In this document: piece by piece, positions 9,249 through 55,443 of the stretch | How positions within the stretch are numbered: the first letter of the stretch is position 1 | Layout of the letters: the number at the start of each line of letters is the position of its first letter | Source: Nitrospira sp. | GTDB taxonomy: Bacteria; Nitrospirota; Nitrospiria; Nitrospirales; Nitrospiraceae | DNA length: 64,000 nt | Assembly (NCBI GenBank): GCA_029194675.1 | Contig: JARFXP010000001.1 | Span: 434,001 to 498,000, forward strand | Reading direction: 5' to 3' | Translations under genes and position numbers: made by a program | Notes under the pieces: generated by a model | Told to the model about the DNA's origin: nothing | Database searches by the model: none | What the model saw: only the letters and a program-made list of their open reading frames with translations

Positions 9249-10184
9249 TTAAGGCCGCGTACGGTGGCCGAGCAGGTGCCGCACCTGATTGACGACATCG
9301 TCCGCCGTGTTGACCATCATGAGCGGCACGCCGCTGCGACGAAGCAATTCTGCAACCTGACGCAGCCGGCCGGTCGAAAAGGTTTCGATCGGTTCCCGGA
9401 CTGTTCTCTCGCCAAGGTTCAACTCGATCTGAAGCCGGCCTTCAGTCACCACGATTCGTCCACCCTGATGTCCCGTTTGGGCCAGCGGATCGAAAACCAG
9501 CGCCGCAATGACATCATTGTGAGCGGCAAGCTGCCGCAGCAACTGTTGCGTCCGCTCGCCCGCGCCCGCAAAGTCGCTCGCGATCATGATCAAATGATCG
9601 TGGCCGGCAAGCGCGAGAGCTTCTTCGAGGGCCCGGTCGAGCTGGGCCTGGTTCGGCTGCACGGAACTGTCGGCGTGAAGCGATTGATTCATGACGACCA
9701 CAGCGGCGAAGATCGCTTCTATCCGACTGCGGCTGCGGTGTGGACGGAATCTATGAATTTCGTCGTCGTTAAAGACGATCCCACCGACCCGATCGCCGGC
9801 GCGGAAGACCATCCAGGCGCCCAGTGCGGTCAGGTGAGCCGCTGTTACCGATTTCAATGCGCGCCGCGACCCAAAGAACATCGACAGTCGTTGATCGACG
9901 ATGAACAGGGCCGGTCGATCTCGCTCTTCGCTGTAGGCCCGCACGTGCGGCGTGCCCAATCGCATGGTCACTTTCCAATCGATCGTGCGAATGTCGTCGC
10001 CGGGGAAATAGTCGCGGATCTCCTCGAAATTGAGCCCACGGCCGCGCACTCTGAATGCATGACGTCCGGCAAGGACGCTCCCGCTCCGCCGTCGAGGCAA
10101 CAACGACAGACCGGCGGCCTTGAACTCGAACGCCATCAGCTCGTGGAGCGACACATAGACGCCGGGAACAGATCGTCCTTCCAT
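9249..10184 (-). CDS. DUF58 protein of the moxR/bat operon
   Basis: A 311-residue cytoplasmic DUF58 protein. It shows the hallmark stretch GRGLNFEEIRDYFPGDDIRT followed by DWKVTMR, and a vWA-like C-terminal half. DUF58 proteins are encoded next to MoxR ATPases and are thought to be their partners in envelope-associated chaperone systems. The gene is separated from moxR by an inserted sulfatase gene and a moxR fragment. No strong ribosome binding site is visible, perhaps because the upstream sequence was replaced. Confidence 0.85.
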   Translation of the reverse strand: MEGRSVPGVYVSLHELMAFEFKAAGLSLLPRRRSGSVLAGRHAFRVRGRGLNFEEIRDYFPGDDIRTIDWKVTMRLGTPHVRAYSEERDRPALFIVDQRLSMFFGSRRALKSVTAAHLTALGAWMVFRAGDRVGGIVFNDDEIHRFRPHRSRSRIEAIFAAVVVMNQSLHADSSVQPNQAQLDRALEEALALAGHDHLIMIASDFAGAGERTQQLLRQLAAHNDVIAALVFDPLAQTGHQGGRIVVTEGRLQIELNLGERTVREPIETFSTGRLRQVAELLRRSGVPLMMVNTADDVVNQVRHLLGHRTRP

Positions 10185-10199
10185 GATTCAAACTTTGTG

Positions 10200-10390
10200 C
10201 TAGGCCGGTACCGCGACAGCTTCGACTAATTTGTCGATCGCCTGGTCTGTGCTGATACCGTCCGCATTCGCGTCGTACGAGAGAATCAGCCGATGACGCC
10301 ATGCACCATCGCCCGCACGTCTTCGGGCGTGACATGGCTGCGGCCCTCAAGCCAGGCGTTGGTGCTGGCGGCATCCTCCAAGCCGATGCC
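10200..10390 (-). pseudogene. 3'-terminal fragment of moxR
   Basis: About 190 bases match the 3' end of the complete moxR (12064-12260). They include the closing EVVAVPA-like codons and a stop (TAG at 10200-10202). The copies differ at many positions, and the fragment lacks about seven bases near 10297, which breaks its frame. No 5' part is present. The fragment and the intact moxR bracket the sulfatase gene, so the sulfatase interrupts a former moxR-DUF58 junction. Confidence 0.85.
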
Positions 10391-10409: not shown

Positions 10410-11963
10410 TTACTGCCCCATATTCTGTTTCATCTTTTCCACAATCTGATCGATACTGAACGACGCGGCACGCTGTCGGGGCGGAAAATCCTTGAATGTC
10501 GCCAAGAACCTTGCTGTCTCGCTCTGCGCGGCAAAAATAAGATACGGCTGAGAAAGGAACCAGTCGTAGTACGTGTTGGACGTGATATCAGCACGCTCAT
10601 AGGGATCCGCATGCAGATCGAACAGTTTCGGGACGCGCAGAGGTGTGAAAGGCTCGGCCCATACCCGCATCGTCCCCGGAGCACGCTGTTCTTCGAATAC
10701 CACTTTCCAATTTTCATAGCGCATGGCGACGAGGTCGCCGTCATCGTTGAAGTAGAAGAATTCCTTCCTCGGACTCGTCTCCTCTTTGCCCGTGAGGTAA
10801 CCCAGCAGATTGTAGCCGTCGAGATGAACTTTGAAGGTTGTGTTCCCTACTTTATGACCCTTGAGCAGTTTGTCTTTGATATCTACCTCTCCGACGACCG
10901 CCATTAACGTCGGCAGCCAATCCAGCCCGCTCACGATTGCATTGGAAACCGATCCAGGCTTGATGTGTCCCGGCCAGCGAATCATGGCCGGGACTCGGAA
11001 CGCGCCTTCCCAGTTGGTGTTCTTCTCGCTCCGGAACGGCGTCATCGCAGCATCGGGCCATGAATTCATATGTGGTCCATTGTCGGTCGTGTAAATCACG
11101 ATCGTACTGTCCGCGATCCCGAGTTGATCCAGCTTCTTGAGCAGCAATCCAATATGCCCGTCGTGTTCGACCATGCCGTCGGCGTATTCCGTGAGCGCCG
11201 TGAGCCCAGGTGGACTACGACGGTCTTCTCGTACATGGGTACGGAAGTGCATGCGTGTACTGTTGAACCAGCAGAAAAACGGCTTGCCGGCTTTATGCTG
11301 CCGTTCGATGAAGTCGATGGCCGCCGCGGAGGTTTCATCGTCGATGGACTCCATGCGTTTTTTGGTCAAGGGACCGGTATCTTCGATCTTGCCGTCCGCG
11401 AACGATCTGATCACCCCCCGGGGACCAAAGGCCTTTCTAAACCGGGGATCGCGAGGATATGTCCGCTGTTCCGGCTCTTCTTCGGCATTGAGGTGATACA
11501 GATTGCCGAAGAACTCGTCGAATCCGTGCGCCGTCGGTAAGAATTCATCTTTGTCACCCAGGTGATTTTTTCCGAACTGTCCTGTGGCATATCCATGGGG
11601 TTTGATCAGCTCAGCAATGGTCGCGTCTTCCTTCTGAAGCCCGACAGGAGCGGCTGGGACCCCGACCTTGCTCAATCCGGTTCGTAACGTCACCTGTCCG
11701 GTTATGAATGTCGAGCGCCCCGCGGTGCAGCTTTGTTCCGCATAGTAATCTGTGAACATCATGCCTTCTTTGGCGATCCGGTCGATGTGAGGCGTTTTGT
11801 AGCCCATTAACCCATGCGTATAGGCGCTGATGTTGCTCTGTCCGATGTCGTCGCCGAAGATGACGAGGATATTCGGCTTTTTCTGGTCTGCCTGCGCCGG
11901 GGATGCAGCCAGAACGGCCAATCCGACGAGAAGAATCGCGCATGACCTTAGGCAAAAAGACAT
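10410..11963 (-). CDS. Sulfatase (arylsulfatase family), exported
   Basis: A 517-residue sulfatase starting at the ATG at 11963 behind AAGGAGGTG. A longer frame to 12032 exists but has no such site. It has a signal peptide ending AQA near residue 25, the metal-binding GDD at about 37-39, and the maturation motif CTAGR at Cys79. A GFDEFFGNLYHLNAEEEPE region is nearly identical in the paralogue at 1-746. It is predicted to hydrolyse sulfate esters in the periplasm. It is inserted between moxR and DUF58 and is flanked by a moxR 3' duplication, so it is a late arrival in this operon. Confidence 0.9.
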   Translation of the reverse strand: MSFCLRSCAILLVGLAVLAASPAQADQKKPNILVIFGDDIGQSNISAYTHGLMGYKTPHIDRIAKEGMMFTDYYAEQSCTAGRSTFITGQVTLRTGLSKVGVPAAPVGLQKEDATIAELIKPHGYATGQFGKNHLGDKDEFLPTAHGFDEFFGNLYHLNAEEEPEQRTYPRDPRFRKAFGPRGVIRSFADGKIEDTGPLTKKRMESIDDETSAAAIDFIERQHKAGKPFFCWFNSTRMHFRTHVREDRRSPPGLTALTEYADGMVEHDGHIGLLLKKLDQLGIADSTIVIYTTDNGPHMNSWPDAAMTPFRSEKNTNWEGAFRVPAMIRWPGHIKPGSVSNAIVSGLDWLPTLMAVVGEVDIKDKLLKGHKVGNTTFKVHLDGYNLLGYLTGKEETSPRKEFFYFNDDGDLVAMRYENWKVVFEEQRAPGTMRVWAEPFTPLRVPKLFDLHADPYERADITSNTYYDWFLSQPYLIFAAQSETARFLATFKDFPPRQRAASFSIDQIVEKMKQNMGQ

Positions 11964-12063
11964 TCCACACCTCCTTATCGAAACAACCGAGCGAGGGTCG
12001 GTGTATGGACAGGTTAACTGGTGTAACTTCACCAGATCACGCTTCTACTTCACGAGACCTTTC

Positions 12064-13065
12064 TCACGCTGGCACGGCCACGACTTCGACCAATTTGTCG
12101 ATCGTCTGGTCCGCGCTGATGCCGTCTGCGTTCGCGTCGTAGGAGAGAATCAGCCGGTGACGCAAGACGCCGTGCACCATCGCCCGCACGTCATCGGGCG
12201 TGACGTAATCGCGGCCTTCGAGCCAGGCATTGGTGCGGGCGGTATGTTCCAAACTGATGCCGCCACGGGGGCTGGCGCCGTATTGAATCCACTTGCCAAG
12301 CGAGTCGTCGTACTTCTTCGGCATGCGGGTCGCATCGATCAAATCGATGATGTACCGCTCGATCGCTTCCGCTACGTAGATCGCGTGGATTTCCTTTCTC
12401 GCTTGAAACACCCTGTCCTGCGGCAGCTTGTCGTCTGCCTTGGCCGGCTGTGACGCAGTCGCACCGACCTGCGACTCTGTCTTGCCGATTTCCTCGCTGC
12501 GGACCAATTGCAGGACTCCCCGCTCGCTGTCCGCGTCGGGATAGGTGATCAGCACCTTCATCAAGAACCGGTCCAGCTGCGCTTCCGGCAGCGGATAGGT
12601 GCCTTCTTGCTCGATGGGATTTTGTGTGGCCAGCACCATGAACAAGTCGGGCATCTTGTGTGTCGTCCCAGCAACCGTGATTTGCCGCTCTTCCATGGCT
12701 TCAAGCAATGCCGCCTGGACCTTGGCCGGCGCCCGATTGATCTCGTCGGCCAGAATGATGTTCCCGAAGATCGGTCCAGGCTGGAATTGGAACAGATTCT
12801 TGCCGTCTTCCTGGTGCAACACTTCGGTGCCGGTGATGTCGGAGGGCAGCAGATCCGGCGTGAATTGAATGCGGCGCATGCCTGCATCCAAATTCTTGGC
12901 CAGGCTCTTCACCGCTCGAGTCTTGGCCAGACCCGGCAAGCTCTCAAGCAGCAGATGCCCATTCGCAAGCAAGCCGACAAGCATCTGCCGGATCACGTCA
13001 CGCTGCCCGATGATCGAGGCTTCCATTCGTCGCTGGAGGTCAGCGATCGCGTCCCGCGCTGTCAT
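12064..13065 (-). CDS. moxR: MoxR-type AAA+ ATPase
   Basis: A 333-residue MoxR ATPase with a Walker A LPGLAKT near residue 43-49, Walker B ILADEINRAP and sensor region VLATQNPIEQEGTYPLPEAQ. The lid domain is conserved (QYGASPRGGISLEH). MoxR proteins act with DUF58 and vWA partners as chaperones for metalloproteins or envelope stress factors. The ATG at 13065 follows an AAGGATCGGGATAC region. It is the first gene of the bat operon. Its 3' end is partly duplicated at 10200-10390. Confidence 0.9.
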   Translation of the reverse strand: MTARDAIADLQRRMEASIIGQRDVIRQMLVGLLANGHLLLESLPGLAKTRAVKSLAKNLDAGMRRIQFTPDLLPSDITGTEVLHQEDGKNLFQFQPGPIFGNIILADEINRAPAKVQAALLEAMEERQITVAGTTHKMPDLFMVLATQNPIEQEGTYPLPEAQLDRFLMKVLITYPDADSERGVLQLVRSEEIGKTESQVGATASQPAKADDKLPQDRVFQARKEIHAIYVAEAIERYIIDLIDATRMPKKYDDSLGKWIQYGASPRGGISLEHTARTNAWLEGRDYVTPDDVRAMVHGVLRHRLILSYDANADGISADQTIDKLVEVVAVPA

Positions 13066-38020: not shown

Positions 38021-38452
38021 ATGGATTTGCGCAAAGACTTCCCTCGCAGCATGCGATTCAAGCTGGCGGGCTATGCTCACCTCGCCCGCATGATCGACAA
38101 ATGCCGGGCAGTGCTTGCCGGAACCGAAGGCGAGTATATCTATCCCTGTCCACTGGACGAACGGCTGATGGCGTTTGCGGGCATCACCAGCGACCAGTTC
38201 ACGGCCACGGTTCAGGCCAACTTGACCGATGAGGGAGTCGTGAAGTGGCTTGAGCAAACGGCAAAACCACACCAGCCCGCCGAGGTGGAGGAATGGAATC
38301 AGAAGCTGTTGGCACGCGAACCAAGTTCTCCTGAAAGCGCGGCCAAGTTCAAAAAATACCTGACAGCCATCGATCCATCACGGACCGACATCGCCGCTTG
38401 GTCGGATTTGCAAGACTTGGAAGAAGGACGGGTCGTTCCGAGACGAGGGTGA
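38021..38452 (+). CDS. DUF5069 protein
   Basis: A 143-residue DUF5069 protein (DFPRSMRFKLAGYAHLARMI, YIYPCPLDERLMAFAGI, IDPSRTDIAAWSDLQDLEEG). The function is unknown. The C-terminal third is duplicated, with divergence, at about 40127-40317 on the other side of a GDSL hydrolase gene. Confidence 0.85.
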   Translation: MDLRKDFPRSMRFKLAGYAHLARMIDKCRAVLAGTEGEYIYPCPLDERLMAFAGITSDQFTATVQANLTDEGVVKWLEQTAKPHQPAEVEEWNQKLLAREPSSPESAAKFKKYLTAIDPSRTDIAAWSDLQDLEEGRVVPRRG

Positions 38453-38610: not shown

Positions 38611-39864
38611 TCATTTAGCTTGAGATGTCTTTGAGGATTCTAGATGCTGAGCTAGGAGTTTGGCGATGGCCCTATGTCCATGTTCGTTTGGGTGGCCGTC
38701 ATGCGAAACCTGATAGGGCTGAACTCCCGTCATGAGTTGTTCTTGCAACGCTGGCAACACATCCAGATATTCAATGCCGTTATGTCTAAGAAAGTCCTTT
38801 GTAATGCTCAGAGCACGCTCCTCATTTTCTATATTGCGGCGAAAACTCTCCGAGGGATTCTTCCAAAGTTGGCGAAATACTGTCTCCTTGGTAGGGATCA
38901 GCACAACAAAGAACCTGATTCTTCTTGCGGCAGCCAACTCCTGCATTCTCTCTATGGCCCTCAATGAAATCTGCAGCCCTTCCGCGATTCTGGGATCGCC
39001 AAGATCAAGGGCTGCGAGACGATATGCGCTTGTAAAAATGGTCTTGAACGGTCCATCGCTAAACACCTCGCAGTATGCTGGATTTGCTTCTGCAAATGCC
39101 TTTGCCTTTGCCCATTTGTCTTGATGAGTGTTGCGTTGATTCATCACACGTGTCTTCTCATAAACTCTCTGGAAAAGTCCGTAAAGCCTCGAGTGTTGGG
39201 AAAGTACCTCTAGCAGGGAAAACCCATCGCGCGTAGCCTTCGTCGTTTCCTTATCGTGAGCCGCAGGTTGATGACCCATGTTGAACATTCGTGACACACG
39301 CGGTCCAATGGGATCGGACTGCTCTGCTTCTCGTACACTCGTTTGCACCTGTGGATCAGAACTTTTGAGCTCAATCAGCTGGCCATTGTTGTATACAAAG
39401 TTGAATGAGTCATAGAGATCATTGCCAAAATAAAAAGCCTCGATAACAATCGTTGGTGATAAGGCAATAGCCTCATCCCACAGTGCAAGGCTGTGTGTAG
39501 GGCCATAACCACCGAAGGCCATGCTATACACAATTTCTCCTGTCAGTGATTCCAATTGCTTCGGCCACGCGTCTTCTGGATTCACACCCGTGCCATATGT
39601 CTGAGAATCACCCAGCGCAACAATATGCGCCTTGGCTGGCATGTCCAGGTTGCGAAACCCCTGACGGTCGTGTCCTGGATAGGCGGGATTAGGTCGACGA
39701 TCGAGACGAGCATCAGGAACAAAGGGGGGAATCTGAGGTGATGTAAGGACCCTATTAACCCTTGGAGACACGAACGCAAATAGCCCCAAAATTGCCTCAA
39801 GAAATCCAACGACTATAAGGACTAAAACTACGACAAAGAGAGCCTGTCTTTTCTTGTGCTTCAT
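38611..39864 (-). CDS. SGNH/GDSL-type hydrolase, membrane anchored
   Basis: A 417-residue protein with an N-terminal membrane helix (about 6-28) and a periplasmic SGNH fold. The catalytic serine motif is VALGDSQTYG and the Asp/His pair is in DGHPNEHGH near the C-terminus. Such proteins often modify exported polysaccharides. It lies between the complete DUF5069 gene and its 3' fragment, and its base composition looks poorer in GC than its neighbours, both signs of insertion. Confidence 0.8.
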   Translation of the reverse strand: MKHKKRQALFVVVLVLIVVGFLEAILGLFAFVSPRVNRVLTSPQIPPFVPDARLDRRPNPAYPGHDRQGFRNLDMPAKAHIVALGDSQTYGTGVNPEDAWPKQLESLTGEIVYSMAFGGYGPTHSLALWDEAIALSPTIVIEAFYFGNDLYDSFNFVYNNGQLIELKSSDPQVQTSVREAEQSDPIGPRVSRMFNMGHQPAAHDKETTKATRDGFSLLEVLSQHSRLYGLFQRVYEKTRVMNQRNTHQDKWAKAKAFAEANPAYCEVFSDGPFKTIFTSAYRLAALDLGDPRIAEGLQISLRAIERMQELAAARRIRFFVVLIPTKETVFRQLWKNPSESFRRNIENEERALSITKDFLRHNGIEYLDVLPALQEQLMTGVQPYQVSHDGHPNEHGHRAIAKLLAQHLESSKTSQAK

Positions 39865-40126
39865 GCACCATCCGTAGTTATGGATAAACGCGTCTTGGGC
39901 GGTGAAGCCGAACAATGTTCCGACAAAACCCGCGCAGGCTGCGAATTATCGAATTATGGCGTATTTTTAGCCAGTCCAGGGACTCCGTCAAGTGCCTCTG
40001 AGACGATCGGCACTCCAGATTGGTACTATTTTCTGATCAGGACAAGCACTGATCTTTCTACGCCTGCTGCCCGAGCAGTGTCATACTCAACTTATTTCCA
40101 ACCAGAGGGCCAATTCGCTTGGCCAG
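39865..40126. other. Unassigned sequence between GDSL gene and DUF5069 fragment
   Basis: An open frame from 39856 runs in frame into the DUF5069 fragment, but its first 90 or so codons match nothing I recognise. It is probably part of the inserted segment. Confidence 0.35.
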
Positions 40127-40317
40127 GGAAGCCGGAGGTCTGGAAACGAACACTCTTGCTACGAGGCCTGATCTCTCCCGAAAGCATGGAACGATTCGAG
40201 AAGTACAGTGACGCCATCGATCCATCACGAACCGACATCACCGCTTGGTCGGATTTGCAAGACTTGGAGGAAGGGCGGGTCGTTCCGAAACGAGAGCCGG
40301 CACATCGTTGTCAGTAG
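40127..40317 (+). pseudogene. 3'-terminal fragment of a DUF5069 gene
   Basis: The fragment encodes PEVWKRTLLLRGLISPESME and DAIDPSRTDITAW, matching AEVEEWNQKLLAREPSSPES and TAIDPSRTDIAAW of the intact gene. The last 80 or so bases are very similar (roughly 93 percent by eye). The final residues and stop differ. No 5' half is present. Confidence 0.8.
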
Positions 40318-42157: not shown

Positions 42158-42889
42158 TCATGACGGTGAGCCGAGGACCTCGCGCCAAACAGTAGCCAAG
42201 TCGTGGAGCGCTTTACTTCCATCGCCGACATAGACCGATCCATGCATCGTGGCCAGACGCCTCGGCTGCAGTGCCGCCAGTCGATGCAGCGTCGCCTCCG
42301 TCCAGGAACAATATGGCACATAGTTCGCCAAGGGGCCTTGCTGATAGTCCACCAGCGTCTTTCGACAACGGTCGATCACGTCTGACTCCGTCATCGGTTC
42401 GACGTCCCCGTTTTGGTGAAAGAGATCCGAACACAGGAGTGTCCGTTCCGTCTCTTCGAACAGCAGTCCCGCTTCCCAGCAATGGGGCACATGCGGCGTC
42501 GATAGAAAGCGGAAGCGGTACCTTCCGGTCTCGATTACCTCACCATCAGCCATACCTTTGGCGGGACGAAGCGCCAGGCAATCATCGACGCTGACCATCT
42601 TGCCCACCACACTGCACACTGCATCCGAATGCGGAGCCAGTTGTTGCCACTCCGGCACCGTCGCGCATTCGTCGGACTCAAAATGGCTGAACCCGATCCA
42701 GCGCAAAGCCTGTGGATCGATCAGCGAGGCCACAGCGGCTTTGACCTCGGGAAAGAGTGCCCGCGGGCCGGTATGGAACAGCAGCGGCTGATCGTCGCGC
42801 ATCAAGAACTGACTGAACTGAATATTGAACGGAGCAACGAACGTGGTAATGCGGAATAGGTCCGGAGCGATCTCGGTGATCTTCGCCAT
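42158..42889 (-). CDS. Metallo-beta-lactamase fold protein, flavodiiron-like
   Basis: A 243-residue MBL-fold protein. The metal motif is SHFESDE (H-x-E-x-D), as in flavodiiron proteins and related oxygen-binding domains, and not the H-x-H-x-D-H of hydrolases. Later ligands are in [20 protein letters not shown] and [11 protein letters not shown]. No flavodoxin domain is fused. It could bind a di-iron centre and act in oxygen or nitric-oxide handling, or be a sensor; this is inferred from the motif. Confidence 0.8.
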
Positions 42890-44294: not shown

Positions 44295-44450
44295 CGTCAT
44301 TTCCCCTGTCCCGCTGGGCAATGAATTCCTTGAGCCCATTCAAATCCAACCATCCAGCCACCAGCTCGTTGCCGACGATGAAGCCGGGAGTTCCCGAGAT
44401 GCCGAGTTCATGGGCGAGGGCAGAATTCTTGGCAATGACGGCTGCCACCT
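44295..44450 (-). pseudogene. DsbA-like gene, 3' fragment 1
   Basis: It encodes AKNSALAHELGISGTPGFIV and then GNELVAGWLDLNGLKEFIAQ, matching the C-terminal 50 residues of the intact protein at 49873-50631. It has no CxxC part. It is the most diverged of the copies. Confidence 0.8.
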
Positions 44451-44510
44451 GAAGGTGACGGACACGCCAATGCAACTGTTCTACTCGTTTAACATCAATT
44501 CACGCGAGCG

Positions 44511-44750
44511 CTAGGCGACACATTGCATCTTGTTGGCAAAGTCCCGCCCTGAGGTGGCGGGAGGCAGCGGTTTGCCGTCTTTCCGATACAAAACGATCGC
44601 TTCTTCGACGATCTGACACAACTCGTCGAACACCGCCTTCTCATCCTTGCCATGACATCCGCCAAGCACCAGACCAGGGGCGCTCCCTACGTAACACTGA
44701 TCTTCTTCAGACCATTCCACGATTTTTGCGTACCTGGCACTCTCTTTCAT
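44511..44750 (-). CDS. hicB: HicB antitoxin
   Basis: A 79-residue HicB domain (YAKIVEWSEEDQCYVGSAPG, then GCHGKDEKAVFDELCQIVEE). It neutralises the HicA mRNA interferase encoded just upstream and likely represses the operon. It overlaps hicA by four bases. It lacks a clear C-terminal DNA-binding domain, as is common in short HicB forms. A truncated copy lies at 49643-49807. Confidence 0.88.
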   Translation of the reverse strand: MKESARYAKIVEWSEEDQCYVGSAPGLVLGGCHGKDEKAVFDELCQIVEEAIVLYRKDGKPLPPATSGRDFANKMQCVA

Positions 44751-44944
44751 TTTTTGGTCTCCTCTATGGCTGACCGGACAGCGCGGAGCTGGTACTGCTT
44801 GGCATCGTCGCCAGCCTTTCCCGATAAGGTAACCGGTTTCGTCACTCGTGGATGAACAAAGTTTCGATGACTTCCTTTACCTCCCCGATCTCTGAATCCT
44901 GCCTTCGCCAGCTCAGCTATCAGCTCCCTAATTTTCGGGGGCAC
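44747..44944 (-). CDS. hicA: HicA mRNA interferase toxin
   Basis: A 65-residue HicA (YcfA) protein. The catalytic-site motif is KGSHRNFVHP, with the active histidine in GSH. It precedes hicB on the same strand with a four-base overlap, the classic hicAB order. Confidence 0.88.
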   Translation of the reverse strand: MPPKIRELIAELAKAGFRDRGGKGSHRNFVHPRVTKPVTLSGKAGDDAKQYQLRAVRSAIEETKK

Positions 44945-45097
44945 CTAGTTTTCCGCTCCGAGATAACTAAGCCATCTCATATGCGATCCATGGTCTCGTC
45001 ACTGTATATCCGGGCTCCCGCCCACTGATTGAGCCAGCTATTCACAGTTGCATAGTGTACTCTGAGATGTGTGTCAATTTCAGCCAGCCGGTATTTG

Positions 45098-45228
45098 TCA
45101 TTTTCCCTGTCCCGCCCGGGACATTAACTCCTTCAGCCCCTTCAAATCCGGAACCAATTCGTCGCTCACGATGAAGCCTGGTGTCCCCGAGATGCCGAGT
45201 TCCCTCGCGAGGGCCCGATTCTTGTCAA
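45098..45228 (-). pseudogene. DsbA-like gene, 3' fragment 2
   Basis: It encodes DKNRALARELGISGTPGFIV, then SDELVPDLKGLKELMSRAGQ and the same GK stop. Relative to the intact gene it lacks four codons (the GALD of VPGALDL). The sequence just after the stop (about 45050-45098) matches that after the intact gene (49820-49873). Confidence 0.85.
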
Positions 45229-45242
45229 ACAGATTTCCAGGG

Positions 45243-45479
45243 TCAGCTCTTGGTATGTGCATCTATCGAGGCTGGGACATTCACGATGCGGCTGATGGAA
45301 GAATCATCCATCAGGCAGTAGGTGTGCAGCATGAGATGAGAGCGGGCGACGACAGGCTCCAGCACCCTGAGGAATCGATGTCGGTCCTCATCCTCCAGGA
45401 AGATGTCCTGCCGTGCAGTGCCCCTGGCGATCACGTGATAGAAGGCCCCAGCAAATTCGATACGGAGTGGCCTGGCCAT
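45243..45479 (-). pseudogene. Y1 (REP-associated, IS200-like) transposase, N-terminal fragment
   Basis: The open frame begins MARPLRIEFAGAFYHVIARG and continues to YCLMDD, the normal start of a RAYT transposase up to the point where the HUH motif (NHxH) should follow. It then runs into unrelated sequence. The catalytic half is missing. The cut lies 15 bases from DsbA fragment 2. Confidence 0.85.
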
Positions 45480-45938
45480 GGGAGCTAAGTTACCTAACGA
45501 TTATGCATAGGGCAAGGTCTGCCCCCTTACGTTGAACCCATTGACTGACGTACCGAACCACAGAAGCTCTTCCCCCGCCACAGATTACACACCGTTCGCG
45601 GCGAGGAAAGCAACCAGCGTCAGGTTGAATTCCCATGCGCACTGGACGGCGAGACCTACAGGTGTTGATGCCTTCCTTGGAACAGAGTCTCGGTAGGAAG
45701 AGGCACGGCCTTTTGCCTCCTCTCTTCGGATCGGGATTGCATTTGTTTGTTCAAATGAGAGAAGCTTTCACACGATCCAATTACGTTATCTAGGCCGATG
45801 GTGAGTGATCGGATGAGGGAGCAGGATGTTGCTTTATATTCTATCGGACGGAGGGGAACCGGCGAGCTGCGCCGCGTTGCCGCAACCAACCGTGTCGTCG
45901 TTGAAGGTGGACAGCTGAAGGCTGACGCGAAGTTTCGC
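45480..45938. other. Unassigned region
   Basis: About 460 bases between the transposase fragment and the lipoprotein gene. I see no gene. A long minus-strand frame here (45656-46162) mostly covers the antisense of the lipoprotein. Confidence 0.35.
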
Positions 45939-46601
45939 ATGGAACGATACATCGCCACCGGTCCTGTCATCATCGGTCTCTGTCTATGCTTCTCTGCATG
46001 CGCAAGCGTGGATACCATCCTGCTCACCAACGACACCTTTCCCCCCAAGGGATCTGCGGAGGAGGTCGCCGTATTGAGACAGACCCCGACGAGGCCGCAT
46101 CGCGACCTCGCGGAGTTACGGATCGACGACACCTGGCTCAGTTTCGGGAGCATGCAACACAAGATCCTGAATCGAGCCGCTACCCTCGGCGCCGATGCCG
46201 TGGTGTTTACACAACCACAAACTCGGACGATACGCAGGGAGACCTATCAACCCATCTATGGCCCGTGGGGCTACAATAGCCCATACTACGGAGGCCCCTG
46301 GGGATATGGCATGTATGGCGGTCTTTACGGAGGCTGGGGTCCTTGGGGTGGGGTTCCATTCGGCAGCATGGCAGTTCCGTATGAGTATCATGAAACCGTG
46401 CGAATCCTCACGGGAACGGCAATCCGATATACCGATGGATCCGGCCCGCAGAGCGGCATCACATCCAACGAACCGGGGTCACAGGCCCTCTCCTCCATTG
46501 AGGAAGAAGAGACAGTGAGGAGCAGCAACCAGCTGGACGTTCGACATGAATCGTTAGGACATCATGTTGGCCGGCAGACGGATGCGATGGGTCGTTCGTA
46601 A
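45939..46601 (+). CDS. Lipoprotein with Gly/Tyr/Pro-rich segment
   Basis: A 220-residue lipoprotein. The ATG at 45939 starts a signal peptide with the lipobox FSAC (Cys21). An N-terminal domain reads LRIDDTWLSFGSMQHKILNR and GADAVVF, similar to small heavy-metal-binding-like (YbjQ) stress lipoproteins. A low-complexity region follows (YYGGPWGYGMYGGLYGGWGP). The function is unknown. It is ten bases from the next lipoprotein gene. Confidence 0.7.
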   Translation: MERYIATGPVIIGLCLCFSACASVDTILLTNDTFPPKGSAEEVAVLRQTPTRPHRDLAELRIDDTWLSFGSMQHKILNRAATLGADAVVFTQPQTRTIRRETYQPIYGPWGYNSPYYGGPWGYGMYGGLYGGWGPWGGVPFGSMAVPYEYHETVRILTGTAIRYTDGSGPQSGITSNEPGSQALSSIEEEETVRSSNQLDVRHESLGHHVGRQTDAMGRS

Positions 46602-46611
46602 GGGAGGATAA

Positions 46612-47097
46612 ATGAACAGACGTGGTCTAAGAGTACTTGCCGGAAGTGTGCTTGCCATCAGTGTCGCTGCTTGTGCCGACACCGGTCAGATACAGGGTGA
46701 GCTTGCCCCTCCCGATGATCCGGTCCTCGACCTCTTGAGCAATGGCATCACGCAATTGAACGTCAACATCAATATGGTGTCGAAGCGCATGAACGATGTT
46801 CAGCAGTCGCCGGCAGGGACCGATCCAGCCTTGCAGGAACTGCGGGCATTGGACCTGTCCGGCTGGCAACTTCAGCAGCAGCAATGGATACTGCAGCGCA
46901 ACCATCTTGTCTTGACGCGCGATACCCTTCAACAGGTCCAGATGAACCGGGAGGAGAAGACTCAGGTCCTCGCTCAGTGGCAACAGCACCGCAGCCGGTA
47001 TGTGAAGGCAATGGAGAACCTTCGTCAACAGCGACACCAGTTGGAGAGCAAACATTTGGAGGCAGAGGCTCGCTTGATCGAGCGCAGGCTTCAGTGA
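46612..47097 (+). CDS. Coiled-coil lipoprotein
   Basis: A 161-residue lipoprotein with a GGGAGGATAA ribosome binding site and lipobox VAAC (Cys21). The long C-terminal helix is rich in Gln (LQQQQWILQRNHLVLTRDTL) and forms a coiled coil. It is probably co-transcribed with the preceding lipoprotein gene. The function is unknown. Confidence 0.7.
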   Translation: MNRRGLRVLAGSVLAISVAACADTGQIQGELAPPDDPVLDLLSNGITQLNVNINMVSKRMNDVQQSPAGTDPALQELRALDLSGWQLQQQQWILQRNHLVLTRDTLQQVQMNREEKTQVLAQWQQHRSRYVKAMENLRQQRHQLESKHLEAEARLIERRLQ

Positions 47098-47179
47098 CAG
47101 CGTCACCTGTCGCGAGGTTCCTCGTCACAATGCATGGTTCCGAACCACTCTCGTCGCTCATCCGGAACCCTCCGGCTTC

Positions 47180-47326
47180 ATGAGGCTGATGGAGCACATC
47201 ATCGTCTTTGCAACGCTGTTTCCCATCCTATTCTTTTTGCTTTCGTGCTTCCGACCCCGCCAAATCTCTGCTCATGGACGATCTGTGGCTGTATTTAACC
47301 AGGAGTTCCCAGGAGAGGTGAGTTAG
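47180..47326 (+). CDS. Possible small lipoprotein, 48 aa
   Basis: An open frame of 48 codons starting at ATG 47180, with a hydrophobic stretch and a lipobox-like LLSC at residue 22 (PILFFLLSC). There is no ribosome binding site, so confidence is low. Confidence 0.25.
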   Translation: MRLMEHIIVFATLFPILFFLLSCFRPRQISAHGRSVAVFNQEFPGEVS

Positions 47327-47468
47327 GGGGAGACCCCGGTACTCTGGGGCGACGGTCTGACGGTGGGAACGAAGGCACGCAGGGCGCGAGCGAAGGCGTG
47401 ATCAGTGTCGGGGGCCGTACTGAGCTCTCAGGCCAACTGCGCCGCAATCGGCACTGTCCAACGACCCG

Positions 47469-47684
47469 TCATTTTCCCTGTCCCGCCCGCGCAATTAACT
47501 CCTTGAGTACATTCAAATCCAACGCCCCAGGCACCAGTTCGTTGCCCACGATGAAGCCGGGCGTGCCAGAGATACCAAGCTCGCGGGCGAGGGCCCGATT
47601 CTTGTCAATGACGGTCTGCCACTTGGGATCGGCCATATCGGTTTCCATGCGTTTGGCATCGAGGCCGACAGTGATATCGTTGAA
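47469..47684 (-). pseudogene. DsbA-like gene, 3' fragment 3
   Basis: The longest fragment. It encodes VGLDAKRMETDMADPKWQTV, then DKNRALARELGISGTPGFIV and the end LKELIARAGQGK with stop. It matches the last 70 or so residues of the intact protein and joins unrelated sequence near 47684. Confidence 0.88.
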
Positions 47685-47724
47685 GCTTAGCGAAGGAATA
47701 TTAATGGAGCCCGCTGGGGAGTTG

Positions 47725-47982
47725 TTAGGCAGTTCTCTGTTGGGCCACGTTCCCAACAACCTGCCACCGTGGCTCAATCGTGTCCGCTGACAAATCAGCA
47801 CCACCATCCCATTCGACAAAGTACCCGCCATTAGCCACCTTGACAAATTCGTTCTGGTCTCTAAGCGCCTCGAACGCCTCATACCGAAGATAAGGGATCA
47901 CATCAAACCGGCCAACGTGACCGTCATCTGCCACAATGGAGAGTACCCAGTTTGGTTTTGCCTGCAGTTCCGTAATTCTCAT
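47725..47982 (-). CDS. DUF2442 protein of a DUF4160/DUF2442 pair
   Basis: An 85-residue DUF2442 protein (VLSIVADDGHVGRFDVIPYL and ADLSADTIEPRWQV). These proteins are usually encoded next to DUF4160, as here, and are suspected antitoxin-type partners. It overlaps the DUF4160 gene by four bases. Confidence 0.8.
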   Translation of the reverse strand: MRITELQAKPNWVLSIVADDGHVGRFDVIPYLRYEAFEALRDQNEFVKVANGGYFVEWDGGADLSADTIEPRWQVVGNVAQQRTA

Positions 47983-48269
47983 TGGTCAAATCCTTTGATC
48001 GGAAAGAGTTTCTTACCATTGACAGCCAAGTCCCAGTCAGCAAGTAAATCTTCTTGATGAATCTCGATCCATGCGACGACCAGCTTGTGCTTATTCGGAG
48101 GCAGATCGCCGACCAAAAGTGTTCCGTCAGGAATCGAATAGACTGCCACCTTCCCTTGGTAATCGGCATGTATGTGTGGCACATGATGTTTCTCAATGTC
48201 TCGAAAGAGAGGTATAAACAACAGATGTGGAAATAGGAAGAGGGCGGTGGCAACCTTTCGGGTGACCAA
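47979..48269 (-). CDS. DUF4160 protein, N-terminus altered next to an IS remnant
   Basis: A 96-residue DUF4160 protein with the family core HHVPHIHADYQGKVAVYSIP and KHKLVVAWIEIHQEDLLADW. The usual short start (a methionine just before the first strand) is missing. The open frame instead runs from a TTG at 48269 into sequence next to the IS256-like remnant, so the native start was probably lost on insertion. It is a suspected toxin of the pair. Confidence 0.7.
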   Translation of the reverse strand: MVTRKVATALFLFPHLLFIPLFRDIEKHHVPHIHADYQGKVAVYSIPDGTLLVGDLPPNKHKLVVAWIEIHQEDLLADWDLAVNGKKLFPIKGFDQ

Positions 48270-48310
48270 ACCCCGCCGGGGGAATCCCGGCCATGAAAGG
48301 AGACACCGCC

Positions 48311-49060
48311 ATGCAGAAGCAGATCACAGCAGTTGAGGCCTGGTCAAGCCGTGAGTGGTGGGACCACCTGGAGATATTTGTGCGTGACCACATTCAGCAG
48401 TTTGTCCAGCGGCTGTTAGTGGAAGAGGTCACGCTGCGGCTGGGCCGAGCGAAGTCGGTGCGCCGTGTTGCGGGATCTGCGGACACGGGGGCTCAGGCCC
48501 GGGCGCTGCACCAGCGCCGATGGTCATCTGGGGATCTGGGCCGCGCTGGCTGAGCAGCAGCCCACTGCCGCCGAACAGCGGTGCTGGAACCATCGGATCG
48601 TCAATGTGCTGGATGCCATCCCCACAACACATCAGACAGACGCACGCACCTGGGTGAAGACCATGCCGTATGCCGAGCCCCAGGTCGAGTGCGAACGGCT
48701 CTGGACCAGTTCAGTCATCGTTAGCGGATGTTGGCGCCGAAGGCCGTCGACCGGTTACACCACGATTGGGAGCGGCTCGTCACCTTTTATCAGTTCCCGA
48801 AGGAGCACTGGCGCCATCTGCGCACCACCAATGGGGTGGAGTCGCCGTTCGCGGCGGTCCGACTCCGGACCACGGCGGGCAAGCGGTTCAAACGTGTGGA
48901 GTCCGCCACGGCCCTGATCTGGAAACTGCTGCAGGTCGCCGAGCAGACCTTTCGACGCCTGAACGCACCAGAGTTATTGCCCCTGGTCTATGCCGGGGCC
49001 CCATTTCTCGACGGAAAGAAGCAGATACCCGAGGTCATCCAACAGGAGGTTGCCGCCTGA
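48311..49060 (+). pseudogene. IS256-family transposase remnant
   Basis: An ATG at 48311 with AAGGAG upstream begins an IS256-type protein (MQKQITAVEAWSSREWWDHL). It jumps by a large internal deletion near 48450 into the core DGHLGIWAALAEQQPTAAEQ followed by RCWNHRIVNVLD. It changes frame again near 48725 and ends FYQFPKEHWRHLRTTNGVES with a stop at 49060. At least one deletion and two frame changes make it inactive. Clear terminal inverted repeats were not found. Confidence 0.85.
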
Positions 49061-49233
49061 TTCCATTAACACACCTATTGACAGGACCTCGCCGTCCGGA
49101 GCACCATGGTTCATACTTACTAAGCGGGGGTGAAAGATGTCGTCAGTCAGCTTGAGGTCGAGGAAGGTACAGAATAGGGATGCACTTTAATTAAATTCTA
49201 ATGCGGTTCGAGTGAATCGCAAGGAGTTATCCG

Positions 49234-49599
49234 ATGAAATTTAAATATCTATGTCCTTGTTTGCTGTTGATGGGTGTCTGCTTAGTCGCGCCGTTCACGG
49301 CTTCAAGCGAAGCCCAGTTCCAGGAGCAGGGATTGACATCCGTTCCTCGTTTTTCATCACCTGCGCCGAGTGGAGAAGACAGACTACAAGACACTATCAA
49401 CCGGAAGACGCAGGATCAGAGCACGCCTCTCGGTCGTTATCCAGATCAGTCGCTGGACAGTGCCAATGGCTATACAGGAAGCCCCAGCGTATTGCCAAGC
49501 ATTGGAGATGGAGGAGATCCGCAGGTGAAGGATCTGAGCAACATGGATACCGGCATTTCAGGACCCAGCACTCCCGATGGTTCTTCTCTCGGAAGATAA
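49234..49599 (+). CDS. Exported hypothetical protein
   Basis: A 121-residue protein with an AAGGAG ribosome binding site and a signal peptide (about 1-26, VAPFTASSEA). The mature part is low-complexity and rich in Ser, Asp, Gly and Pro, without a known domain. Confidence 0.55.
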   Translation: MKFKYLCPCLLLMGVCLVAPFTASSEAQFQEQGLTSVPRFSSPAPSGEDRLQDTINRKTQDQSTPLGRYPDQSLDSANGYTGSPSVLPSIGDGGDPQVKDLSNMDTGISGPSTPDGSSLGR

Positions 49600-49642
49600 A
49601 CGTGAGGGAGGCCTGTTGGCTGAAGCGTTGGAGAGATCACAC

Positions 49643-49807
49643 CTAGAGAGCGATTGCTTCTTCGACGATCTGACATAACTCGTCGAACACCGTCTTCTTG
49701 TCCTTGCCATGGCATCCACCAGGCACCAAGCCAGGGGCGCTCCCTACGTAACATTGATCTACTTCGGACCATGCAACGATTTTTGCGTATCCGGCGCTCG
49801 CTTTCAT
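49643..49807 (-). pseudogene. Truncated hicB copy
   Basis: It encodes MKASAGYAKIVAWSEVDQCY and GGCHGKDKKTVFDELC, then stops early after EEAIAL. It matches the intact hicB at 44511-44750 and lies between the secreted gene and the intact DsbA-like gene. No hicA accompanies it. Confidence 0.85.
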
Positions 49808-49872
49808 TTTCTGCACTCACCGTCGCATAGTGCACTCTGAGCTGTGTGTCGATTTCAGCCGGCCGGTATTTG

Positions 49873-50631
49873 TCATTTTCCCTGTCCGGCCCTGGCAATT
49901 AACTCCTTCAGTCCATTCAAATCCAACGCCCCAGGAACCAGTTCTTTTCCCACGATGAAGCCTGGTGTCCCAGTGATGCCGAGTTCGCGGGCCAGTGCTC
50001 GATTCTTGTCAATGACGGTCTGCCACTTCGGATTGGCCATGTCAGCTTCCAGGCGTTTCGCGTCGAGGCCGACGGCGACGGCGATCTTCAAGATTGATTC
50101 CTTACTCATATCGGCGCGGGAGGCGAGCAGCGCCTCATGGAAGGCTTGGTGCTTGCCTTGAGATTGAGACGCGAGCGCTGCCTTGGCCGCAAGCTCCGAC
50201 GGTTCGCCCAGAATGGGAAAGTCCTTGTAGACCACTCGCACCCGGGAATCAACTTTCTGGAGTTCCGTGACCGCCGAAGCCGCCTTCTTGCAGAACCCGC
50301 AGCGGTAGTCATAGAACTCCACCAAGGTGATCTCGCCATTCGGATTGCCGCTGACCGGTGATGCCGGATCGTGCAGCAGTTCATTTTGCTTCGTCGCAAG
50401 GGCAGCTTTGTGATGCTCCTTCAGTTCCGCTTCACGTTTGGCCAGCAATCCCTGCAGTGATTGTTCGATCACTTCCGGATGGGCACGGATGTAGCGCTCG
50501 ATCACTGTATCGGTAAGATCTTGAGAGGGGGCCGCCGCGCTCTTGGTCTCGTTGGCCGTGGTTGAGCAACCAGACAGAAAGACAACGAGCGTAGCGAGGA
50601 CAACTGGCGCCGGCGTGTTTTCTATCTTCAT
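49873..50631 (-). CDS. DsbA-like thioredoxin-fold lipoprotein
   Basis: A 252-residue lipoprotein (lipobox LSGC, Cys22) with an N-terminal helical extension and a DsbA-type domain. The active site is CGFC (Cys111-Cys114) and the cis-proline is in GTPGF. It is expected to be a periplasmic thiol oxidoreductase or isomerase. It starts four bases inside the TPM gene and ends the operon. Its 3' part is repeated as three broken copies at 44.3, 45.1 and 47.5 kb. Confidence 0.9.
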   Translation of the reverse strand: MKIENTPAPVVLATLVVFLSGCSTTANETKSAAAPSQDLTDTVIERYIRAHPEVIEQSLQGLLAKREAELKEHHKAALATKQNELLHDPASPVSGNPNGEITLVEFYDYRCGFCKKAASAVTELQKVDSRVRVVYKDFPILGEPSELAAKAALASQSQGKHQAFHEALLASRADMSKESILKIAVAVGLDAKRLEADMANPKWQTVIDKNRALARELGITGTPGFIVGKELVPGALDLNGLKELIARAGQGK

Positions 50632-54724: not shown

Positions 54725-54922
54725 CTACTGCTCACCGCCGATCTCAGGTATAGACAAACCCCGACAGATTTTCTGAGTCAGCTTGTTGGGAATCTCGGTG
54801 TGCCGCGGCACAGCCTCAACTGCGCCAGTCGCTGGGTTTATCCATAGCGAATGCGCTCGCCCTTCCCGCTTGAGCTGGCAGCCGTATCGCCTGAGATGGC
54901 GAAGCAGATCACCCCGTTTCAC
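54725..54922 (-). CDS. hicA: HicA-family toxin
   Basis: A 65-residue YcfA/HicA protein (MKRGDLLRHLRRYGCQLKRE, then AHSLWINP and a closing ICRGLSIP). The GxH catalytic region reads GRAHSLW. It follows hicB with a four-base overlap, the reverse order of the pair at 44.5-44.9 kb. Confidence 0.85.
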   Translation of the reverse strand: MKRGDLLRHLRRYGCQLKREGRAHSLWINPATGAVEAVPRHTEIPNKLTQKICRGLSIPEIGGEQ

Positions 54923-55134
54923 CTGACCGTGACCTTCTCACGCACCGCGTCCCGTGGCGCACCGCGCAGGCCATCTTTGCGCCTATCCTCAAGGATCAGG
55001 GAAATGGCCTCCGCTAGGCTTTTCCGGACTTCCGCCTTGGTCCGGCCCTGTCCATTTGCCCCTGGGATTTCTGGGCAGTAGGCGATGTACCATTCTCCTT
55101 CGCGTTCGATGATCGCCGTGAATTCGTTCTTCAT
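54919..55134 (-). CDS. hicB: HicB-family antitoxin
   Basis: A 71-residue HicB protein (FTAIIEREGEWYIAYCPEIP then GANGQGRTKAEVRKSLAEAI). The ATG at 55134 follows GAGGTGACG; the longer frame to 55209 is less likely. It is paired with the hicA immediately downstream. Confidence 0.85.
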   Translation of the reverse strand: MKNEFTAIIEREGEWYIAYCPEIPGANGQGRTKAEVRKSLAEAISLILEDRRKDGLRGAPRDAVREKVTVR

Positions 55135-55443
55135 CGTCACCTCTTCATTTTCCTCGACGGTAGCTTTCAGTCGGATCCCAACCGTCTCCAAGATCTGCCT
55201 AACGCTCAAGTTGAGGAGCCGGCGAGGAGCTTGGCTTCCTCCACTACCAGAACGGAAATGTAGATCTCATAGCGCCCTCTCGCCTCATTCCCCCACTCCT
55301 GAGTGATGGTTTGCCGAGCCGCAGTAACAATATCCCGGCTCGGTCTGGCCACATGAGTAGCTAATCACGAACGTTTCTACGTAAACTGAAAATGCCATGA
55401 CATGCTCAGTCTAGCAGGAATAGCAGGAATAGGGGTCAGAGTG

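Follow-up and report, generated by a model that had tools for sequence, protein, structure and literature searches.

Orphan 3' ends are known from rhs and contact-dependent inhibition (CDI) genes and from type VI secretion system (T6SS) effector-immunity arrays (Koskiniemi 2014, PMC3967940; Kirchberger 2017, PMC5361080). For rhs and T6SS, the same reports put forward homologous recombination and, possibly, homology-facilitated illegitimate recombination. Merodiploid formation by transformation has been described as a further route to duplications (PMC3784515), and integrase-free hotspots are reported to be common (Oliveira 2017, PMC5635113). How such hotspots gain genes while sparing the flanking gene has so far largely been inferred. 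Here we describe a dsbA-like gene in a window of 64 kb (the whole stretch of DNA that was analyzed) from the 5.2-Mb genome of a Nitrospira sp. (G000). The gene is followed by three displaced copies of its own 3' end, which we refer to as tails, and by other small genes, which we refer to as cargo. We lean, if only slightly, toward the view that gene ends at housekeeping genes are displaced one after another by homologous recombination. In one open-access literature collection, no title or abstract was found on such stacking in Nitrospira or behind housekeeping genes.

The intact gene (49873-50631, minus strand) encodes 252 amino acids (aa) with a DSBA domain (PF01323, E 1.5e-27). The original prediction, made from the letters of the window, held that the gene has three downstream copies of its 3' end, all oriented as it is, and that none keeps the CxxC half. 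Repeat finding and BLAST confirmed the copies, all on the minus strand. Tail 1 (47468-47674) runs from -200 to the stop codon and is 86-87% identical to the gene; here and below, coordinates with a minus sign are bp counted back from the dsbA stop codon. Tail 2 (45042-45228) is 79-83% identical over 45097-45228 and has a further 56 bp past the stop codon in common with the intact gene. Tail 3 (44295-44450; 79-82%) is joined to hicB at -153. The tails reach at most about the last 75 codons, and the CxxC half is indeed in none of them. When their own genome was searched as a whole, the three tails matched with E values of 1.2e-65, 1.0e-52, and 7.6e-30, and the remaining matches were a hicB stretch and two long matches of 65-67%, putative dsbA paralogues.

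We extended the analysis to the genus. A dsbA-region search gave a match in 59 of 79 Nitrospira genomes, and the 57 stretches retrieved, together with the window, yielded 52 loci that hold a full-length dsbA; loci lacking the full-length gene were excluded. Tail detection with nhmmer found 21 tails of 60-208 bp in 14 of these 52 loci, every one a 3' end only, downstream of dsbA and on its strand. The sequence around the loci had medians of about 3.5 kb upstream and 14 kb downstream (less than 1 kb downstream in several), and the downstream skew of the tails is partly set by this larger span. The count excludes weak hidden Markov model matches in G064 and G065 and a minus-strand match within the gene of G013 itself. 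Among 18 further loci from named records, two (L165 and L168) had weak tails. A query with the last 201 bp of dsbA matched 56 of the 79 whole genomes, at few places beyond the known loci; one such place, in G075, encodes residues 130-247 at 50% and was taken as a paralogue, and a further match in G058 (contig 32) was left outside the comparison. An assembly artefact was ruled out by the presence of tails in 14 separate genomes, including the single-contig G001. A plasmid search gave 2,189 records that match the DsbA protein, all at <60% identity.

Tails could also be left behind if full-length tandem dsbA duplicates decayed from the 5' side, and the tails are indeed decayed and in the same orientation as the gene. 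We find this scarcely credible. There was no 5'-only or full-length extra copy of dsbA in the 52 loci (some with <1 kb downstream), and the decayed full-length copies in relatives that the original prediction had named as the contrary case were likewise not seen there. None of the 21 tails is an intermediate or a 5' remnant, what lies between the copies is cargo rather than dsbA 5' sequence, and the same picture is found at moxR, ribE, trpA, and other genes (see below).

Seven of the 21 tails are followed by cargo that, in another genome, was found close behind an intact dsbA; matches to conserved flank genes were excluded from cargo in this comparison. Sequence behind tail 1 of G035 matches G033 at 85% over 413 bp, beginning with the first bases past both stop codons. 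Further matches link the cargo of G072 to G034, of G000 tail 1 to G021, of G056 to G055, and of G023 to G067, and the cargo of G000 tail 2 and of the G055 tail matches sequence behind the intact dsbA of G009 and G075, where hicAB lies within 80 bp of the gene. Several of the seven matches begin 100-700 bp behind the tail. In addition, the G077 tail continues, by eye, into the sequence that stands behind dsbA in the tail-less genomes G013 and G050. Some tails, at the least, are therefore displaced ends that still have their old neighbor. In these cases dsbA has been restored by an incoming 3' end and the old end has been displaced.

What lies between dsbA and the next conserved gene, an interval that starts at 86 bp, is different in nearly every genome, such that dsbA has conserved flanking genes with differing cargo between genomes. 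The conserved gene on the downstream flank has an ODP family beta-lactamase fold (42158-42889, minus strand; PF19583, E 1.9e-10), and a homologue is found downstream of dsbA in 33 of the 52 loci, the nearest at 318 bp. A Pfam scan of ten cargo proteins placed three above the cut-off (deaminase, TIR, and SEC-C) and one below it, with no match for six. The cargo that recurs across loci is hicAB and DUF4160-DUF2442. At locus L038 of G056, between +5032 and +9827 past the dsbA stop codon, fragments of the ODP family flank gene (its 3' part and then its 5' part) precede the intact copy, which indicates that the other flank has been rearranged too.

The end of the intact gene carries a record of exchange as well. 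Synonymous-codon identity was compared for 16 of the 18 pairs that are closest by 5' identity (G064/G065, near-identical and without a drop, and G032/G005 were excluded); these pairs share members and are not independent. In dsbA, identity was 0.821 in the body, 0.765 in the 70 codons before the last 16, and 0.576 in the last 16 codons, against 0.833, 0.826, and 0.801 in the same three segments of control genes from the same loci. The last 16 codons were below the body in 16/16 pairs, and a drop of at least 0.25 occurred in 16 of 139 control gene pairs. By this measure, the 3' end of dsbA is a recombination hotspot. The onset of the drop varies by pair (about -250 in G021/G055, about -200 in G018/G013, about -150 in G078/G059, and within the last 50 bp in G050/G048), and identity recovers past the variable interval, reaching 95.0% over 4.2 kb in G050/G048.

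One DUF4160-DUF2442 unit has spread recently. Past the stop codon, the units of G058 and G035 are 90-100% identical in 40-base windows, mostly at least 95%, against 80-90% in the gene, and two tandem copies of the unit in G035 are 98-99% alike. The unit is more alike than the 5' part of dsbA in G058/G062 (0.86 versus 0.74), G035/G058 (0.96 versus 0.87), and G063/G077 (0.91 versus 0.80), which indicates horizontal spread. In G058/G035, high identity extends from the unit into the tail. With the unit included, the best switch points were -137 for G058 and copy 1 (p 0.005), -161 for G058 and copy 2 (p 0.010), and -99 for copy 1 and copy 2 (p 0.005), in a test that was cut ahead of a truncation of copy 2 near -41. 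The crossovers of this unit therefore appear to fall at two or more points, although these are weakly resolved. Tail 1 of G035 is a patchwork: up to about -100 it resembles the other unit tails, from -60 to -31 it is 97% identical to its own gene, and past the stop codon it resembles G033.

These observations bear on a second alternative, in which ancient insertions or partial duplications behind dsbA, one or a few in number, were inherited vertically and lost in most species, leaving the tails as immobile relics. It would account for the junctions shared per module type and for a unit identity that is close to dsbA identity in many pairs. It sits badly with the three pairs in which horizontal transfer has left the unit well above dsbA, with the 98-99% tandem copy in G035, with cargo that follows a tail in one genome but the intact gene in another, and with the 3'-end incongruence in 16/16 close pairs tested. 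We regard it as improbable.

In the window, a hicB remnant (49644-49818, minus strand; 86% identical to 44587-44761) is directly behind the intact dsbA, so the gene and tail 2 each precede hicAB-type sequence. It is followed by a small cargo open reading frame (ORF) on the opposite strand (49234-49599, plus strand; 121 aa, secreted by eye) and by a fragment of an IS256/Mutator transposase (48728-49060, plus strand; PF00872, E 2.7e-08). The DUF4160 gene (47979-48269, minus strand; PF13711, E 3.8e-19) and the DUF2442 gene (47725-47982, minus strand; PF10387, E 4.3e-11), the first and second genes of their unit, come next, ahead of tail 1. The cargo behind tail 1 is a pair on the plus strand, a lipoprotein-like ORF (46612-47097; named by eye), which has a homologue about 100 bp behind the intact dsbA in G021, and a partner ORF (45798-46601) without a Pfam match. 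A Y1/RAYT-like transposase remnant (45243-45479, minus strand; named by eye, with no Pfam match at E 0.001) is joined to tail 2. Behind tail 2 are hicA (44747-44944, minus strand; PF07927, E 1.2e-10) and its hicB-like partner (44511-44750, minus strand; by eye, no Pfam match). Another hicA/hicB-like pair (by eye) lies upstream of dsbA, at 54725-55209.

Such sites are found at several genes of this genome, dsbA among them. Self-comparison of the window found two more. A moxR-type AAA ATPase gene (12064-13065, minus strand; PF07726, E 1.9e-63) is separated by a sulfatase gene as cargo (10410-12032, minus strand; PF00884, E 3.4e-50) from a displaced moxR 3' end (10204-10390, minus strand; 80%), which lies 20 bp before a DUF58 gene (9249-10184, minus strand; PF01882, E 2e-32). 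Genes for MoxR and DUF58 proteins are usually paired. In G056, the last 41 bp of moxR recur 5.5 kb downstream. On the plus strand, a DUF5069 gene (38021-38452; PF16798, E 1.1e-47) has a displaced 3' end of 84% identity at 40174-40294, with a GDSL/SGNH-hydrolase-like gene between them as cargo (38611-39915, minus strand; PF13472, E 6.8e-09).

Scanned automatically, 864 kb of the G000 genome gave 17 copies of 13 ORFs in the class that dsbA represents (3' end, downstream, same strand). The other classes held 7 copies of 7 ORFs (3', upstream), 3 of 2 (5', downstream), and 2 of 2 (5', upstream), and the opposite strand had none; spurious and reciprocal ORFs are among those counted, some of them sitting on the tails themselves. 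Our curated list has nine genes: dsbA, moxR, the DUF5069 gene, ribE, trpA, two methyltransferase-like genes, an M48-like gene, and a hypothetical gene, the last four named by eye and ribE and trpA confirmed by Pfam. It omits four doubtful 3'-downstream ORFs (scan coordinates 250569, 296246, 516055, and 532599), and for trpA and one methyltransferase gene, alignments that matched the gene itself were set aside. The two lumazine domains of ribE led the scan to discard it as a paralogue, and ribE was seen in a separate comparison. As controls, the same scan found none in 200 kb of G096, 200 kb of G091, or 50 kb of Escherichia coli. In this small control set, the displaced-end pattern is uneven within the genus.

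The second recurrent site is ribE (L213:536-1189; G000:C1:658536-659189). The last 243 bp of the gene, used as the query with at most nine candidates scored per genome, matched 71 of the 79 genomes. There were 14 ribE tails in 13 of the 79 genomes, each a 3' part on the same contig and strand as the gene and downstream of it, and among the matches listed, none was upstream on the same contig. This count excludes G073, whose second match is on another contig, as well as G060 and G061, which have two long matches on different contigs, and includes G018, although its first match spans only positions 1-182. The cargo of G000 ribE is directly behind the gene in five genomes (G000, G033, G031, G063, and G034), and in G018 and G059 it directly follows a displaced end; short or more distant matches in G055, G009, G036, G021, and G052 were left out of the tally. 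The ribE cargo also matches on dsbA-bearing contigs in G041, G024, G048, G023, and G030.

The original prediction had attributed the tails to sequential insertions that each regenerate the gene's end, in the manner of site-specific integration, and had noted that no integrase is visible. The cargo comparison and the G077 tail support sequential insertions at the 3' end of the gene. A single site-specific core is less well supported, because breakpoints differ by module type and the close pairs change at different points. Alignment did reveal shared breakpoints, which are near-constant within a module type and differ between types. Among tails behind DUF2442, the 5' breakpoint is at -196 to -201 in 8 of 10 (the other two are at -160 and -182). 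It is at -153 to -155 in three tails behind hicB and at -139 in two tails behind the Y1-like remnant, a junction common to the window and G055. The tail breakpoints thus show neither a single shared core nor a random spread. As for the integrase, none of the listed Phage_integrase (PF00589) matches, all but the weakest, lies within 20 kb of dsbA in any of the 14 tail-bearing genomes (some contigs are short).

Integrative elements insert in the 3' ends of tRNA genes and of some protein genes. By analogy, a site-specific recombinase, acting in trans or since lost, might insert small cassettes at a core site in the gene end, with the tails as displaced right halves. Since the 5' breakpoints cluster, a site-specific agent stays compatible with the data, and the polarity of the arrays would also follow. 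Tyrosine recombinase matches are present somewhere in 14/14 tail-bearing genomes. However, the breakpoints within one gene vary by cargo (about -200, -155, and -139), the gene ends of close pairs change at differing points, the identity of the recent unit passes the breakpoint into the tail, nine unrelated genes are affected in 864 kb by the curated list, and the listed matches place no integrase near dsbA. We give this explanation a minor but appreciable chance.

An integron-type array is a related possibility, in which attC sites were replaced by the dsbA end or captured it and an integron integrase inserts the cassettes. By eye, the sequence at the DUF2442 stop of the window unit resembles half of an integron attC site. 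The dsbA-linked DUF4160-DUF2442 units retain the TAACAA half after the DUF2442 stop, again by eye against the consensus, and a unit of G078 that is away from dsbA (L111:1501-1860) ends, by eye, in an attC-like site. On the other side, no complete attC was recognized by eye between the dsbA tails, the hicAB junctions are without the TAACAA half site, and the breakpoints fall inside coding sequence. An integron array is therefore very improbable in our judgment. DUF2442 loci away from dsbA were checked for copies of other gene ends, with an ambiguous outcome that was not used. Clusters of attC sites lacking integron-integrases (CALINs) have been reported in Nitrospira inopinata (PMC9024848).

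In the mechanism that we favor, the displacement of gene ends by homologous recombination, DNA of a relative would arrive with the 3' end of a core gene and cargo (the two-gene units hicAB or DUF4160-DUF2442 or other small genes). Homologous recombination inside the shared 3' end would leave the resident gene with its own 5' part and the incoming end. The dsbA comparisons show such replacement of the end, with RecA as the presumed agent. The resident end would be pushed downstream as an untranslated tail, with its old cargo or native neighbor still behind it, as is seen for part of the tails. The far junction, at which cargo adjoins the inside of the displaced gene, probably arose a single time for each module type, either by an illegitimate join or by recircularization before a single crossover. 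A finished module, which has the same gene end on both sides, could then move from species to species and multiply through ordinary homologous recombination, as is seen for one unit, whose crossover points are weakly resolved. A module of this kind would need no integrase of its own. The G000 genome encodes a ComEC-family protein (PF03772), which permits DNA uptake and does not demonstrate it.

Several observations weigh against homologous displacement. A 3.87-kb insertion in G050 replaced the last 40-50 bp of dsbA, and there is no tail. The near-identical pair G064/G065 is without an identity drop. When the switch test was run on the tail alone, there was no significant switch (p 0.070, 0.154, and 0.075), an earlier estimate of a switch at -57 was confounded by the truncation of copy 2 near -41, and only one unit is recent enough for placing crossovers. 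No significant switch was found in 11 of 15 comparisons of a gene with its own tail. In 400 kb of G063 there was one 3'-downstream gene, as opposed to three 5'-upstream and one 5'-downstream. The remaining points are those that favor a recombinase: the near-constancy of the 5' breakpoint within a module type (-196 to -201 in 8/10 DUF2442 tails), the start of 7 of the 14 ribE tails at query positions 82-86, and a tyrosine recombinase gene (G055:C2:248382-248981) 0.8 kb beyond the ribE tail of G055. The shared start of the ribE tails may reflect common descent or a preferred site.

A bolder version, which we think rather doubtful, is that Nitrospira has a dedicated route that stacks cassettes behind core genes, with the host 3' end as both recognition and joining module. 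Many core genes would then act like an integron platform, and the arrays would be a time-ordered record of toxin-antitoxin and other acquisitions.

Where displaced ends are kept, the sequence itself gives the order and direction of arrivals and, if enough strains are compared, the places of crossover. Since several unrelated core genes share this polarity, it becomes possible to test whether one-sided insertion at gene ends is a general way of gaining genes. There is also a caution for annotation: what is labeled a "truncated paralogue" behind a core gene may be a displaced end and so the mark of an insertion.

The Nitrospira arrays share their layout with the rhs, CDI, and T6SS systems as these are portrayed in the reports cited at the outset: an intact gene is followed by displaced 3' ends with linked genes, the newer ones nearest the intact gene. 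In Nitrospira, the linked gene behind a displaced end has been recognized for 7 of the 21 dsbA tails. In those accounts, the variable 3' end is the selected toxin, whereas the dsbA end is the C-terminal part of the DSBA domain, which is conserved and serves as a joint. The Nitrospira cargo is also unrelated to the host gene, and several core genes are hit. A second likeness is to single-crossover insertion of a recircularized molecule (Amarir-Bouhram 2011, PMC3240628), in which foreign DNA with one homologous end leaves a partial gene duplication. That was a rare laboratory event in E. coli lacZ, as reported, whereas the same type of product recurs in natural Nitrospira genomes. Finally, the arrays resemble the minimal mobile elements of Neisseria (PMC3082526) and integrase-free hotspots (Oliveira 2017, PMC5635113), for which differing cargo between conserved genes is described as a result of homologous recombination in the flanks. 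Like the flanking genes of hotspots, dsbA shows a raised level of homologous recombination. However, the interval is exchanged in those systems, as they are described there, whereas Nitrospira keeps the older intervals and stacks them, with a copy of the gene end to mark each one.

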